Below, one piece after another: positions 51,703 to 64,000 of a stretch of 64,000 nucleotides of DNA. Location of the stretch: positions 101,687-165,686 of the forward strand of contig PGXU01000001.1 of the NCBI GenBank assembly GCA_002839335.1, given 5' to 3'. The notes under the pieces are model-generated. The model did not search any database. It was not told where the DNA came from and saw nothing but the letters and a program-made list of their open reading frames with translations. Each line of letters begins with the position of its first letter. The first letter of the stretch is position 1. Source of the stretch: Spirochaetae bacterium HGW-Spirochaetae-4 (GTDB lineage Bacteria; Spirochaetota; Spirochaetia; Sphaerochaetales; Sphaerochaetaceae). The translations under genes were made by a program, and so were the position numbers.

Positions 51703-52167
51703 ATGAAGAGAAACATTTTCCTCGTTGTAGTTTTGTGTGCCCTTGGATTCCTATTGGTCGGATGCGCCGATAGATACTCGAATCCCGAGAGTCGGGAACT
51801 GGTAGTGTTCAATGATACGACAGATCAAGAGCTCAGCTATGTCTCAATACAGACGTACGTATCTACAGAGAGGGCTGCGATGCCCCCCAATTCATTGGCT
51901 GATGGAGAAACAATACTGCCAGGGGCGAAAATGTCCTTCTACCTGCCTCCGTTTCCTGATAAAACGTATATTATGATCAATTCATCTGCAACTGAAGGAA
52001 GTGAAGAAGGTTCTGAGTCTACAACTATATTTCGGGAAAATTTCATTCTGGACGATGGAGTCTCTGTCGAGGCACGATATTACTATGATGCGTCAAATGA
52101 AGCAATTGGGGATGGGTACCTGATTGAGCTTGGTGGCAACGGCTACGAACCTCTTTTTGATGAATAA
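51703..52167 (+). CDS. Small putative lipoprotein, tandem paralog 1
   Basis: MKRNIFLVVVLCALGFLLVGCADRYSNPESRELVVFNDTTDQ...YLPPFPD; lipobox LVGC. Confidence 0.82.
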   Translation: MKRNIFLVVVLCALGFLLVGCADRYSNPESRELVVFNDTTDQELSYVSIQTYVSTERAAMPPNSLADGETILPGAKMSFYLPPFPDKTYIMINSSATEGSEEGSESTTIFRENFILDDGVSVEARYYYDASNEAIGDGYLIELGGNGYEPLFDE

Positions 52168-52180
52168 ATCCTCTGATACC

Positions 52181-52209
52181 GGTCTCTCAAGACAACTTTC
52201 TGGGAGGCC
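52181..52209 (+). terminator. Hairpin H1 after lipoprotein 1
   Basis: ggtctctcaaga-caact-ttctgggaggcc, 11/12 pairs counting wobbles. Confidence 0.5.
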
Positions 52210-52361
52210 GACAAGGTATCTACCAACCAGTGGGAAATTACACGGTCTGTGGAAATCGAAAAGATTCTTGTGCTTGCGAGTGCGACTGAACACATTTGAT
52301 ACATGTAAGACAAATGGGATATTCCATAATTGAAATGAAAAGGTTTAGAAAAGGTGATTTT

Positions 52362-52802
52362 ATGAAAAAGGCTACACTGTTGGTTTCTGTGCTGTGTGTT
52401 CTGGTTTTCCTGTTTGTGGGATGCGCCGAAGGATATCGGAATCCCAAGAGTAAGGAACTGGTGGTTGTGAATGACAGCGATTCCGGTATCGTTAGTATCG
52501 GTCTTTCGGCATATATCGAGGAAGGGGATATGCGAGTGACTACGCCACCGGTAATTATACCTCCAGGAGCTCAAGAATCCTACTATTTGCCACCATATGC
52601 GGATGCGATTCGCTTGGGTATCGATACGGAATCGGGAGGATATGGCTCCATTCGTTTCACGTACGACTACAAGGTGGATGGCCGGAATGAAACGATTACT
52701 GCCACCTACACGGAAACGTTTGTGACTGAAGGGACGTACAGCTACTATGATGGGAATATTGAGCTCGAGGGAAGCAATACCACCGAGGTGGATATAAAAT
52801 AG
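52362..52802 (+). CDS. Small putative lipoprotein, tandem paralog 2
   Basis: MKKATLLVSVLCVLVFLFVGCAEGYRNPKSKELVVVNDSDSG...PPGAQESYYLPPYAD; start corrected to 52362. Confidence 0.8.
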   Translation: MKKATLLVSVLCVLVFLFVGCAEGYRNPKSKELVVVNDSDSGIVSIGLSAYIEEGDMRVTTPPVIIPPGAQESYYLPPYADAIRLGIDTESGGYGSIRFTYDYKVDGRNETITATYTETFVTEGTYSYYDGNIELEGSNTTEVDIK

Positions 52803-52816
52803 CACTAGTAGGATCG

Positions 52817-52843
52817 GCCTCGCAAGCCAACTTCTTGCGAGGC
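52817..52843 (+). terminator. Hairpin H2 after lipoprotein 2
   Basis: gcctcgcaag-ccaactt-cttgcgaggc perfect 10-bp stem, then aagtgttttg. Confidence 0.65.
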
Positions 52844-52860
52844 AAGTGTTTTGTATGGTA

Positions 52861-52903
52861 CACTCTCCCGAGCGAGTGCAGGCAACGTAAGGATCCATAC
52901 CTC
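52861..52903. repeat. Dispersed intergenic repeat, copy B
   Basis: cactctcccgagcgagtgcaggcaacgtaaggatccatacctc; 41/43 identical to 5634-5676. Confidence 0.7.
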
Positions 52904-53093
52904 GCCCCTTGGGACGGGAAAGGAGGCAAAGCCTCCACTTTCCAGGGCTTGTCCTGGGGGCATTGATACCTTTCATTCTCAGAGTCCCAAACATCGAAAC
53001 GATCTCTCGGGCGATAAGCATAAGGCACTATAATGTAATCCATTATTAGATTATGTCTCAAAGATGGCACGGTATTACATTTAGGATGGTTAC

Positions 53094-53537
53094 ATGAAGA
53101 AGTTCTTTTTCTTGATCTTGGCTACATGTGTTTTTGGTCTATTGTTTGTCGGTTGCGCCGATAGGTACGCGAACCCTGAGAGCAGGGAATTGGTGGTTTT
53201 CAATGATACGACGGATCAGATAATTGATAATGTTGCGATTAGTTCATACCTTTCGCCACCACGGGCAATTTCATCCAATGCCTTGGCAGAGGGCGAGACG
53301 ATACAGCCTGGGGAAAGAAAGGCTTTTTATCTGCCGCCATATCCAGACTATACGACTATCCGTGTAGATTCTTCTCCTGAAGACAATTCAGTCGATAATT
53401 ATGCCAATGACAGTCTGTACATGGAAAATTATGTTCTTGATAAAGGGGCGGTTGTCGAAGCAGGATATTACTATGATACCGGTTCAAGTTCTTTTAAGAT
53501 TGAATTCGGTGGAGATGGCTACCAAATCGCAAAATAA
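53094..53537 (+). CDS. Small putative lipoprotein, tandem paralog 3
   Basis: MKKFFFLILATCVFGLLFVGCADRYANPESRELVVFNDTTDQ...YLPPYPD; closest to paralog 1. Confidence 0.82.
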   Translation: MKKFFFLILATCVFGLLFVGCADRYANPESRELVVFNDTTDQIIDNVAISSYLSPPRAISSNALAEGETIQPGERKAFYLPPYPDYTTIRVDSSPEDNSVDNYANDSLYMENYVLDKGAVVEAGYYYDTGSSSFKIEFGGDGYQIAK

Positions 53538-60884: not shown

Positions 60885-61244
60885 TTAGATGAATCTTCCT
60901 GCATCAACGGAGAATAGCGCGGCGAGTCGCTTGGCCATTTGTCGACTGATGGGCTTGTAGTCCCGCTCCATGTCGGAGATGAACTGCTTGGCTACACCAA
61001 GTTTCTCGGCAAGCTGGATTTGCGTGAGATTTTGCATCGTGCGGTAAAACCGCAGGTTCTTGCCGGGGGAATCCTCACCTTGCAGGTTCTTGTACCAAAC
61101 CATTTCTTCCACAGGCATCAGATTGCCATCATCCTCAATGCTCATGGCGTCCCCATACTCCAGCTTGAGAGAATCGATCAGTGTGCAAGGGATATTTCCT
61201 TCTACGCGGAATTCAATAGGGTGCTTTTTCACGACTACCAACAT
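60885..61244 (-). CDS. XRE-family HTH antitoxin (HigA-like)
   Basis: LRFYRTMQNLTQIQLAEKLGVAKQFISDMERDYKPISRQMAKRLAALFSV; downstream of a RelE/HigB-like ORF. Confidence 0.8.
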   Translation of the reverse strand: MLVVVKKHPIEFRVEGNIPCTLIDSLKLEYGDAMSIEDDGNLMPVEEMVWYKNLQGEDSPGKNLRFYRTMQNLTQIQLAEKLGVAKQFISDMERDYKPISRQMAKRLAALFSVDAGRFI

Positions 61245-61480
61245 AATACACCTCCACGATGTACTGATCCTCTACCTTTTTCCAGCACGCTACCCAACGA
61301 TAAGCAAGATGACAATGAAACGTGTTGCTGCCCAGCTTGCTGTATTTTTTTGTATCCTGGCTGGGCGGGTCCTGAAAGTCTGATATCATCAACCAACTTC
61401 TTCAGGGTAATCTGTGCATTCCTTGGCATTTCCCTGATAATCCGCTCAAACTTTGATGACATCACCACAGCATAGTTCAT
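61213..61480 (-). pseudogene. RelE/HigB-like toxin, frameshifted at a 7-A homopolymer
   Basis: Track ORF 61235..61480 loses similarity after QPGYKK; removing one A gives ...GYKKYSKLGSNTFHCHLAYRWVACWKKVEDQYIVEVYYVGSREKAPY*, ending at 61213. Confidence 0.75.
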
Positions 61481-61486
61481 GCGTTA

Positions 61487-61509
61487 AAGTACTACAATAT
61501 ATAGTACTT
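61487..61509. promoter_or_regulatory. Toxin-antitoxin operator candidate (AAGTACT-N9-AGTACTT)
   Basis: Perfect 7-bp inverted repeat immediately upstream of the toxin ORF, abutting TTGACA on the minus strand (61514-61509). Confidence 0.55.
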
Positions 61510-61637
61510 GTCAAGGTTTCGATTCGATAGAGAAAAAATCCTGTCTAAAAGAGACCAGGTGTCTTAGATACTATTTGATAACCTATAGCAATTTATAACC
61601 TACCGTAATCATATTGTGTTAGAATGAGTGAAATAAA

Positions 61638-63830
61638 ATGATAAAAAGTAAGGGATTAATTACTTCATCATTATTTCTTGCTCTTCTAGTCTCAATTCTA
61701 AGTTGTGTACAAACCCAGGAAGTTGATCCAATTTCTCCATATAGTGAGCCAATAGTTACCGACTCGGTTGAACAGAACGCAATTGCGAGTCTTGATGAAG
61801 AGGTGCTCTCCACTGAGACCAAAGAAGAACAGAATAAAGCTTTGGACTTCACCAAAAGTAAAGATATAGGAGATGAAGAATCTCAGGCAGATGTGAACAT
61901 TATTGCAAGTCATGCCGAATCCAATGAAATCCTGGATGAAGTAACACAAAGTGAAATTGTTGTTCCTTCTGGAGAGCCAGTATTAATATTGGTAGAATCA
62001 AGGCCAGCCTCAGAACTTACTGAACAACCTTCGGAGAATCTGCATAAATCATTGCTAGTCAAAGAAGAATCATCAGTTGCTTCAGTTCCTGATTCTCCTC
62101 TCCAAGCAGAAATACCAACGTTTGCAACTTCCCTGCAAGAGCCAGTTGTGGAAGAAAATGAACTAACTAATTTGGAGAGTACAGAGGGGGCGCAAATGCC
62201 AAATTCACTTATATTGCCCATTCTATTTATTATATCAGTTGTTATTCTAACTATTCTTTTCATATTACTAAAAGCGGCGAAAACCAAATTGAAGAATACC
62301 AATCAAAATTTCAAATACTTGGGAGAAGAGCTTGATGAAGCGAGACAAATGCTTGTTGAAACAAAAAATGAGTTATCAGAAAAGCGTGAACGTCTTCGAT
62401 ACTCAGAAGAAGAATTGAGTAATGCAAGCAGAAGGATCCTTGAACTTGGCATTACTGATATCGAATCTGCAAAGAGCATAATGGAGGGGTTTCAGAAGGA
62501 AATACAAACATTGGAGGCCGAAGTCGCGAATCTTTATACTTATCAAGTTGAATTGAAAGGAAAGAATATTAATCTTAGCCAGGAACTTCAAAAACTAGAT
62601 ACAAGGATTGCCAATCAATCAAGGAAACTTATTAGAGCCCGAGAATTATCTTCCGCAGTAGAGCATGCGGTCGAAAGATTCTTTAGGATTGATATCCCAA
62701 CGGAATACTACAGACCTTTGACAGATGAAGAAAAAGTAGATATCGATTCTATCGCTCCTTCGGTTATGTTGAACCTCAATTATATGAATTACCAGGAACT
62801 CCGGAAGGAATTTAGAGCGAACCAGAAACAGATAGAGTCACTTCTCGAAGAATATGCGCAGCGTTATACAACAAAGGCAAACCAATCCATCTACAAGCTA
62901 ATGGTAATTGCATTACGCTCAGAATTACAGAATATTCTGTATAATCTGAAACATGAGAAGCTTGACAATGCATTGTTCCAAGTTCAATCGTTGATATCGA
63001 AATACCTGGTGATTGTTTCCGATGGTAATCAACAAATTGCTGGGACTATGCGTAAATTTATCGGAGAGTTGGAACACTTGTTCGACAGTTCTGTTAGAAT
63101 TGAATATGAGTACTACATAAAGAAAGAACAGGCACGGCAAGAACAGCTTGCCCTACGTCAGCAAATGCGAGAGGAAGCGGAAGAACGGAAGCGTTTGGAG
63201 GAACAGAAGAAGCAGGTGGCTCTTGAAGAGTCGAAGTATCAGGCTGAGATTGAGAAGATTCAGGACTTGTTGGCTCAGGAGCCGGAAGATTCTGAAAGAA
63301 GGGCAGACATAGAAGCGAAACTTCAGGAGCTCAATGTTCAGCTTGATCTTGTTGAAGAGAAAAAGGAAGAAATCACCAAACTTCAAAATGGCAAGGCCGG
63401 TAATGTGTATATCATCAGCAATCTCGGTTCGTTCGGAGACAAAGTATTCAAGGTCGGTATGACCAGACGTTTGGACCCTCAAGAAAGAGTTGATGAGCTC
63501 GGCAGCGCGAGTGTTCCATTCAAGTTCGATGTGCATAGTTTTATCTTTTCTGAAGATGCTGTCGGTTTAGAAAACGAAATGCACAATCGATTACGTGCAA
63601 GACGATTGAATAAAGTTAATCTTCGGAAAGAATTCTTTGAAGTCTCTTTGGATGAACTTGAGCAGATAGTACTTGATATCAACCCGACAGCCGCTTTTAA
63701 CAGGACTATGCTTGCAGAGGATTACAAGCAATCGCTCTCCTTGGGAGAAGAGGAAATTCCACTTTCCAACTCCGATGATACTATTGAACAATCCGATGAA
63801 GATGATCCAGATAATGGTGAAAACGATTAG
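61638..63830 (+). CDS. Membrane-anchored DUF4041-like coiled-coil protein with C-terminal T5orf172/GIY-YIG-like domain and N-terminal lipoprotein signal
   Basis: MIKSKGLITSSLFLALLVSILSC lipobox; TM ~190-212; MNYQELRKEFRANQKQIESLLEEYAQRYTTKANQSIYKLMVIALRSELQNILYNLKHEKLD (DUF4041-like); GNVYIISNLGSFGDKVFKVGMTRRLDPQERVDELGSASVPFKFDVHSFIFSEDAVGLENEMHNRLRARRLNKVNLRKEFFEV (T5orf172-like). Confidence 0.85.
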   Translation: MIKSKGLITSSLFLALLVSILSCVQTQEVDPISPYSEPIVTDSVEQNAIASLDEEVLSTETKEEQNKALDFTKSKDIGDEESQADVNIIASHAESNEILDEVTQSEIVVPSGEPVLILVESRPASELTEQPSENLHKSLLVKEESSVASVPDSPLQAEIPTFATSLQEPVVEENELTNLESTEGAQMPNSLILPILFIISVVILTILFILLKAAKTKLKNTNQNFKYLGEELDEARQMLVETKNELSEKRERLRYSEEELSNASRRILELGITDIESAKSIMEGFQKEIQTLEAEVANLYTYQVELKGKNINLSQELQKLDTRIANQSRKLIRARELSSAVEHAVERFFRIDIPTEYYRPLTDEEKVDIDSIAPSVMLNLNYMNYQELRKEFRANQKQIESLLEEYAQRYTTKANQSIYKLMVIALRSELQNILYNLKHEKLDNALFQVQSLISKYLVIVSDGNQQIAGTMRKFIGELEHLFDSSVRIEYEYYIKKEQARQEQLALRQQMREEAEERKRLEEQKKQVALEESKYQAEIEKIQDLLAQEPEDSERRADIEAKLQELNVQLDLVEEKKEEITKLQNGKAGNVYIISNLGSFGDKVFKVGMTRRLDPQERVDELGSASVPFKFDVHSFIFSEDAVGLENEMHNRLRARRLNKVNLRKEFFEVSLDELEQIVLDINPTAAFNRTMLAEDYKQSLSLGEEEIPLSNSDDTIEQSDEDDPDNGEND

Positions 63831-63901
63831 ACAGCATGTACCCGATCATAAAAATCTAGAAAGTTGGAATTCAAAAATTTTGAATACAAAGTGTAAAACA
63901 C

Positions 63902-64000
63902 GGGCTCTTCCGCAAAACGTGTGGTCAAGTGGTGAAAGGAGGGGCGTGTGCGCGGAGGGGACGGCAGGAGGATCGCGGTTGCAAAAAGGGACGGAATTCC
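63902..64000 (+). mobile_element. Possible insertion-sequence end (ISL3-like terminal sequence)
   Basis: gggctcttccgcaaaacgtgtgg resembles ISL3-family ends as remembered; composition changes abruptly here. No transposase visible in the window. Confidence 0.25.

Follow-up and report, generated by a model that had tools for sequence, protein, structure and literature searches.

The right end of the 64,000-nucleotide stretch of the Spirochaetae bacterium HGW-Spirochaetae-4 contig analysed here (the window) carries a gene whose predicted product has a lipoprotein-type signal peptide, an acidic segment, a transmembrane helix and a GIY-YIG nuclease domain in a single chain. This raises the questions of which family the protein belongs to, how a lipoprotein leader came to precede a membrane-anchored nuclease, and whether the gene specifies one protein or two. 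The family and its main mechanism are already published; what is new is the N-terminal lipoprotein extension together with a conserved internal start. From comparison of the homologous sequences we think it likely that this one gene yields two forms of an anti-phage nuclease of the SNIPE family, the canonical form and a long form with a periplasmic tail. The features referred to below are as follows.

61617–61625, + strand: TGTTAGAAT, a promoter-like extended -10 element 12 nt upstream of the first ATG, recognized by homologue comparison
61638–63830, + strand: long ORF, 730 aa, lipoprotein-extended SNIPE (PADLOC PD-Lambda-1, E 9e-76)
61638–61703, + strand: predicted lipoprotein-type signal peptide, residues 1–22, with the spirochaete-like lipobox ILS-C (hydropathy; Cys ends the hydrophobic stretch in 8/8 homologues)
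61704–61706, + strand: Cys23, predicted to be lipidated, the only Cys of the protein
61707–62195, + strand: acidic, disordered, predicted periplasmic segment, residues 24–186 (composition; pLDDT < 50 at 23–194)
62184–62189, + strand: internal Shine-Dalgarno hexamer GAGGGG with a 6-nt spacer to the ATG, an arrangement kept in 8/8
62196–63830, + strand: nested short ORF from Met187, 544 aa, with canonical single-TM SNIPE architecture (start-site comparison; equivalent to the start of paralogue G124b)
62208–62276, + strand: predicted transmembrane helix, residues ~191–213, followed on the inside by a K-rich, acid-free stretch (hydropathy)
62280–62681, + strand: coiled coil, residues 215–348 (AlphaFold2 model)
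62715–63137, + strand: DUF4041-type helical domain, residues ~360–500 (hhalign to DUF4041 proteins)
63399–63680, + strand: GIY-YIG (T5orf172/MUG113) nuclease domain, residues 588–681 (Pfam)
63570–63572, + strand: Glu645, equivalent of the catalytic Glu414 of Escherichia coli SNIPE (alignment; role of E414 from PMC13190303)
63903–64000, + strand: end of a dispersed element (GGCTCTTCCGCAAAACG...) and of the contig; two further contigs end in the same sequence behind unrelated left flanks

Membership of the SNIPE family

The window protein is matched by the PADLOC PD-Lambda-1 models (E 9e-76 and 3e-73), by PHROG 1847 over residues 196–705 (E 7e-90) and by Pfam T5orf172/MUG113 at residues 589–680 (E 2e-15 and 9e-18), the last in the place where an initial annotation, made from the sequence alone, had put a T5orf172 domain (~588–680). 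The PD-Lambda-1 profile is matched in one full-length stretch in the homologues of G029 and G083, and in G029 the match spans 9–478 of 491, transmembrane helix included. SNIPE is the name given to PD-lambda-1 in a Nature paper of 2026, and the E. coli protein is an inner-membrane nuclease with its N-terminus out and its C-terminus in that cuts phage DNA during injection (PMC13190303). Glu414, the catalytic residue mutated in that study (PMC13190303), aligns in the E. coli protein on phage PhiR26_1 (L044) with Glu645 of the window protein.

The middle domain is less easily assigned. Pfam DUF4041 (PF13250) matches the E. coli, Leptospira and G096 proteins but has no match in the window protein, nor in its G029, Clostridium, G431 and prophage L010 relatives, and a profile–profile comparison was therefore needed. 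With hhalign, residues 313–712 align to DUF4041 proteins of E. coli, Leptospira, Vibrio and Sphaerochaetaceae with a probability of 100, and by this comparison the domain is homologous to DUF4041 proteins and has diverged beyond the Pfam model. The coiled coil and DUF4041-like region of the initial annotation thus stand as a coiled coil and as homology at the profile level, and not as a Pfam match. Judged by these similarities, the window protein is a SNIPE of a diverged branch whose closest kin outside the group are Bacillota and prophage proteins.

An AlphaFold2 model built with 54 homologues has pLDDT < 50 at residues 23–194 and a helix from residue 193 that continues into the coiled coil; a helical middle domain follows, joined by a long helical linker to an alpha/beta nuclease domain. 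The acidic segment seen earlier before the membrane helix is borne out, with 22% D+E, 4% K+R and a net charge of -30 over residues 24–190. A Foldseek search of the PDB with the whole model returned coiled-coil noise only (best E 0.06), a PDB sequence search with the window protein returned coiled coils and other chance matches only, and there is no Rfam match within 61200–64000.

The transmembrane helix, placed previously at ~190–212, is found at ~191–213, with acidic sequence on its N-terminal side and, after it, 15 residues with four Lys and no acidic residue. This charge pattern and the topology of E. coli SNIPE (PMC13190303) both agree with the N-out/C-in orientation predicted in the initial annotation, and a cytosolic nuclease was rejected on account of the predicted helix. 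The accompanying view that DUF4041–T5orf172 proteins are usually cytosolic does not hold, as 66% of SNIPE homologues have a predicted transmembrane helix, lying in such cases within the first 70 residues (PMC13190303). In the window the helix begins at residue 191 of the long form, and occupies residues 5–27 of the short form from Met187. The suggestion of a membrane-stationed nuclease acting on incoming DNA fits the family, but it is no novelty, this mechanism having already been shown for E. coli SNIPE; plasmid transformation is not blocked by SNIPE, so DNA uptake in general is not the target (PMC13190303). The N-terminal region of SNIPE proteins is variable and has been proposed to be an adapter setting phage specificity (PMC13190303).

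Among prophage-borne relatives at 12 viral loci (L062, L065, L067–L069, L071, L072, L075–L078 and L086), the transmembrane helix is replaced by an N-terminal four-cysteine (CxxC...CxxC) zinc-ribbon-like segment, which is perhaps the DUF4428-like N-terminus mentioned in PMC13190303.

The lipoprotein-type extension in the Sphaerochaetaceae

Homologues are found in 10 of 139 Sphaerochaetaceae genomes and are absent from both other genomes of the source genus. Eight ORFs are extended (those of the window, G029, G110, G093, G103, G092, G124a and G083); these are related to one another, and counts over them are not of independent events. All eight have a common N-terminal design with a signal of 21–25 residues, made up of a basic n-region and a hydrophobic core and ending in Cys, an acidic segment, a transmembrane helix and then positive charge, so that the lipobox-plus-helix architecture for which a homologue survey had been suggested is present throughout this group. 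Hydropathy and the invariant Cys likewise uphold the lipoprotein signal first noted in the window protein. The residue before the Cys (-1) is G or S in 8/8, and position +2 is V, T or D, with D solely in G083 (no Asp in 7/8). At -2 the window protein has Leu, which is atypical of lipoboxes outside spirochaetes and fits only the relaxed spirochaete rule. On these sequence features the N-terminus is probably lipidated at Cys23.

Between the Cys and the membrane helix lie 135–194 acidic, disordered residues nearly free of aromatics in all eight proteins. The acidic segments are only 11–24% identical to that of the window protein, as against 77–86% in the nuclease, and the frame is nonetheless open without stops in every case; a chance ORF extension was rejected in view of this conservation across homologues. 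In a tree a single clade (SH-aLRT 95) unites the eight and also contains the second copy of G124, which is without the extension and represents one nested loss. The two SNIPE genes of G124 (L035:4046-6070 and L035:17659-19260) are ~12 kb apart, one with and one without the extension, and form a natural comparison of the extended and unextended forms.

None of 66 comparable viral-contig homologues has the extension, their transmembrane helix being near the start or missing, and none was found among the Bacillota and prophage homologues examined; in other spirochaete families the homologues have open frames of only 444–544 codons. Over the published survey and the homologues covered here, from viral contigs, a small number of Bacillota loci and other spirochaetes, the lipoprotein-type extension is new for SNIPE. 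Beyond the clade, the closest relatives carry one N-terminal transmembrane helix or none at all, and fusion to a lipoprotein leader is therefore the likely origin of the extension.

Two candidate translation starts

Each of the eight genes has an in-frame ATG just before the transmembrane helix. In the window this is at 62196 and encodes Met187, the sole Met between residue 1 and the helix; in G093 the Shine-Dalgarno-preceded Met was chosen over another Met two residues upstream. The ATG is preceded, with a spacer of exactly six bases, by GAGAGG in four genes and by GAGGGG, GAGGGA, GAGGAG and GTGAGG in the others. Among all ATGs of the eight genes the G-rich hexamer-N6-ATG pattern occurs once per gene and only at the pre-TM ATG, compared with 1.08 matches summed over all eight in codon-shuffled genes (maximum 5 in 2,000 trials), although the pattern was derived from these same genes and its exclusivity is thus a description and not a blind test. 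A pattern-free measure, the free energy of pairing with the 16S tail, gives -5.8 to -11.1 at the internal ATGs, where typical gene starts in the same DNA have about -6 and random ATGs about -1 to -2.4. Against a synonymous-codon null the combined p is 4e-4 with genes treated as independent, and the per-gene values are modest (0.016 to 0.42). Paralogue G124b, without the extension, starts at an equivalent AAGAGG-N6-ATG, upstream of which lies a TGGTATACT box resembling the one in its long sister.

We read these observations as pointing to a functional internal start that would give a 544-residue protein of the E. coli SNIPE architecture. The initial annotation had recognized that an internal start removing the signal peptide and the membrane helix would count against its reading, and had missed this site; a start at Met187 does remove the signal peptide, but it keeps the helix. 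The long form might also be the only one made, with the pre-TM Met and its purine-rich hexamer an unused relic of an ancestral single-TM SNIPE start, a history that the outside relatives with one N-terminal helix or none would suit. A relic out of use should decay like its flanks, however, and when the sequences are aligned on the internal Met, identity averages ~10% over columns -40 to -5 while the hexamer Glu is at 75%; the start site alone is conserved in the region, with hexamer, six-base spacer and ATG persisting in 8/8 through biased codons. We consider such a relic unlikely, and retain the internal start as a candidate functional one.

Upstream of the first ATG, an extended -10 box, TGNTANNNT, ends 11–12 nt before the ATG in 7/8 homologues, G083 having no such pattern there, and in 20,000 shuffles of the upstream regions TGNTANNNT is found at a common distance in at most 3/8. 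A consensus promoter scan gave no excess over chance (9 versus 6.2 +/- 2.6), and the -10 assignment is therefore based on homologue comparison. The first ATG has a weak Shine-Dalgarno sequence in most homologues, which is explained by a box at this distance, since the leader would be only about five bases long.

The weak ribosome-binding site and the existence of G124b without the extension are also what might be expected if the short form alone mattered, the extension being an incidental open frame on an ordinary single-TM SNIPE. Such a frame would hardly hold a signal peptide, its terminal Cys and an acidic composition open in 8/8 through indels and near-saturated divergence, or keep a -10 box 11–12 nt from the first ATG in 7/8, and we regard this account as improbable. 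Were it not translated, a long frame would not have stayed open through indels in eight genes this diverged, and the first start also looks real on this comparison. Our preference thus remains with the use of both starts.

Genomic context and proposed role

The AT-richness of the gene noted at the outset is confirmed (GC 0.40 against a background of ~0.53), and the copies in G093, G103 and G124a are likewise AT-rich relative to their surroundings, which fits horizontal transfer. Upstream lies a clear HTH_3 antitoxin-like gene (60885–61244, - strand), as expected of the toxin–antitoxin locus proposed earlier, but the adjoining 81-aa ORF (61235–61480, - strand) matches no family, and 60885–61480 is possibly a toxin–antitoxin pair with a degraded partner. 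The suspected IS end downstream is real in kind: an element beginning GGCTCTTCCGCAAAACGTGTGGTCAAGTGG starts 73 bases past the SNIPE stop codon and ends three contigs (the window, G000 C16 and G000 C103) whose left flanks differ. The contig ends within it, and it is probably a mobile element collapsed in assembly; its end resembles the ISL3 type, but no ISL3 transposase was found in the assembly. Elsewhere in the window (51703–53537, + strand) are three tandem paralogous small lipoproteins (..GCADRYxNPESRELVVxNDT..) of no clear Pfam family.

The window's own neighbourhood has no certain defence gene. Defence genes do lie near the homologues in three genomes: G092 has AbiL genes, G029 has PDC-S01 and G093 has a SoFic-like Fic protein. 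In G092 (L040:1-1724 and L040:11577-12848), AbiLi/AbiLii adjoin the SNIPE gene and a second AbiLi is ~7.6 kb downstream, forming a small defence island. Several copies are surrounded by chromosomal genes of ordinary kinds and have no evident defence gene next to them, which would suit a GIY-YIG enzyme that is membrane-bound but serves the host, for example in chromosome or envelope maintenance. Sporadic occurrence in the family, low GC against the background, the full-length PD-Lambda-1 match and the defence neighbours in three genomes all speak against that, and there is little chance that the nuclease is not anti-phage.

Taken as an anti-phage system, the gene would probably work as follows, and we infer translation from both starts, lipidation, phage defence and a role for the tail. 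A promoter abutting the first ATG would drive a transcript on which two starts lie in the same frame. Translation from the first, which has next to no leader and a weak Shine-Dalgarno sequence, would yield the long form. The N-terminus of this form would be exported and probably lipidated at Cys23, and ~165 acidic, disordered residues would lie in the periplasm ahead of the point where the chain passes inwards through the inner membrane. The Met187 ATG, with its strong Shine-Dalgarno sequence, would yield canonical single-TM SNIPE. Both forms would hold the DUF4041-type domain and the GIY-YIG nuclease on the cytoplasmic side of the inner membrane and there, by analogy with SNIPE, would cut phage DNA on entry, and the tail of the long form may be an adapter contacting phage or host.

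More speculatively, and with considerable doubt on our part, the two forms could co-assemble, with abundant canonical protein and a minor long form whose lipid-anchored tail reaches, or is held at, the outer membrane. The tail length of 135–194 aa is enough to cross a periplasm, and 7/8 proteins have no Asp at +2. If this were true, the tail would bridge the envelope as a tether, sensing or gripping the injection apparatus of a phage ahead of the arrival of its DNA at the inner membrane. To our knowledge, no phages of these spirochaetes have been described.

If these readings are right, this is a spirochaete lineage in which the SNIPE adapter is a lipoprotein-type periplasmic tail and the standard effector is apparently kept alongside it via an internal start, giving a defence effector with two translational isoforms. 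With two starts in one gene, adapter and nuclease could be separated and the adapter idea made directly testable, and annotation from the longest ORF can mask the canonical form of such a protein.

The nearest characterized system, E. coli SNIPE, shares the N-out/C-in transmembrane helix, the coiled coil, the DUF4041-type domain and the GIY-YIG nuclease with its catalytic Glu, and its form of about 500 aa corresponds to the short ORF of the window (PMC13190303). It differs in having a short N-terminus with the helix at ~5–25 (PMC13190303), where the window protein has a lipoprotein-type signal and ~165 disordered residues first. The spirochaete gene also has a conserved internal start that would regenerate the short form, and a middle domain beyond Pfam DUF4041. 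The Bacillota and prophage relatives (for example Clostridium L005 and IMG/VR L047–L087) are the closest homologues of the core, 45–60% identical and with the same diverged middle domain, and have no transmembrane helix, one N-terminal helix or an N-terminal zinc-ribbon-like CxxC segment. An N-terminal lipid and an inner-membrane helix are combined in one chain in, for example, SctJ/PrgK of type III secretion, but these lipoproteins have structured periplasmic domains, no nuclease and no homology to SNIPE. Cas11 is a precedent for a defence gene with a second, N-terminally shortened product made from an internal ribosome-binding site (PMC11899642). In that case a small subunit is made from inside a large Cas gene (PMC11899642), whereas from the spirochaete SNIPE gene, whose protein is unrelated, the short product would be the complete effector and the long product would bear the addition.
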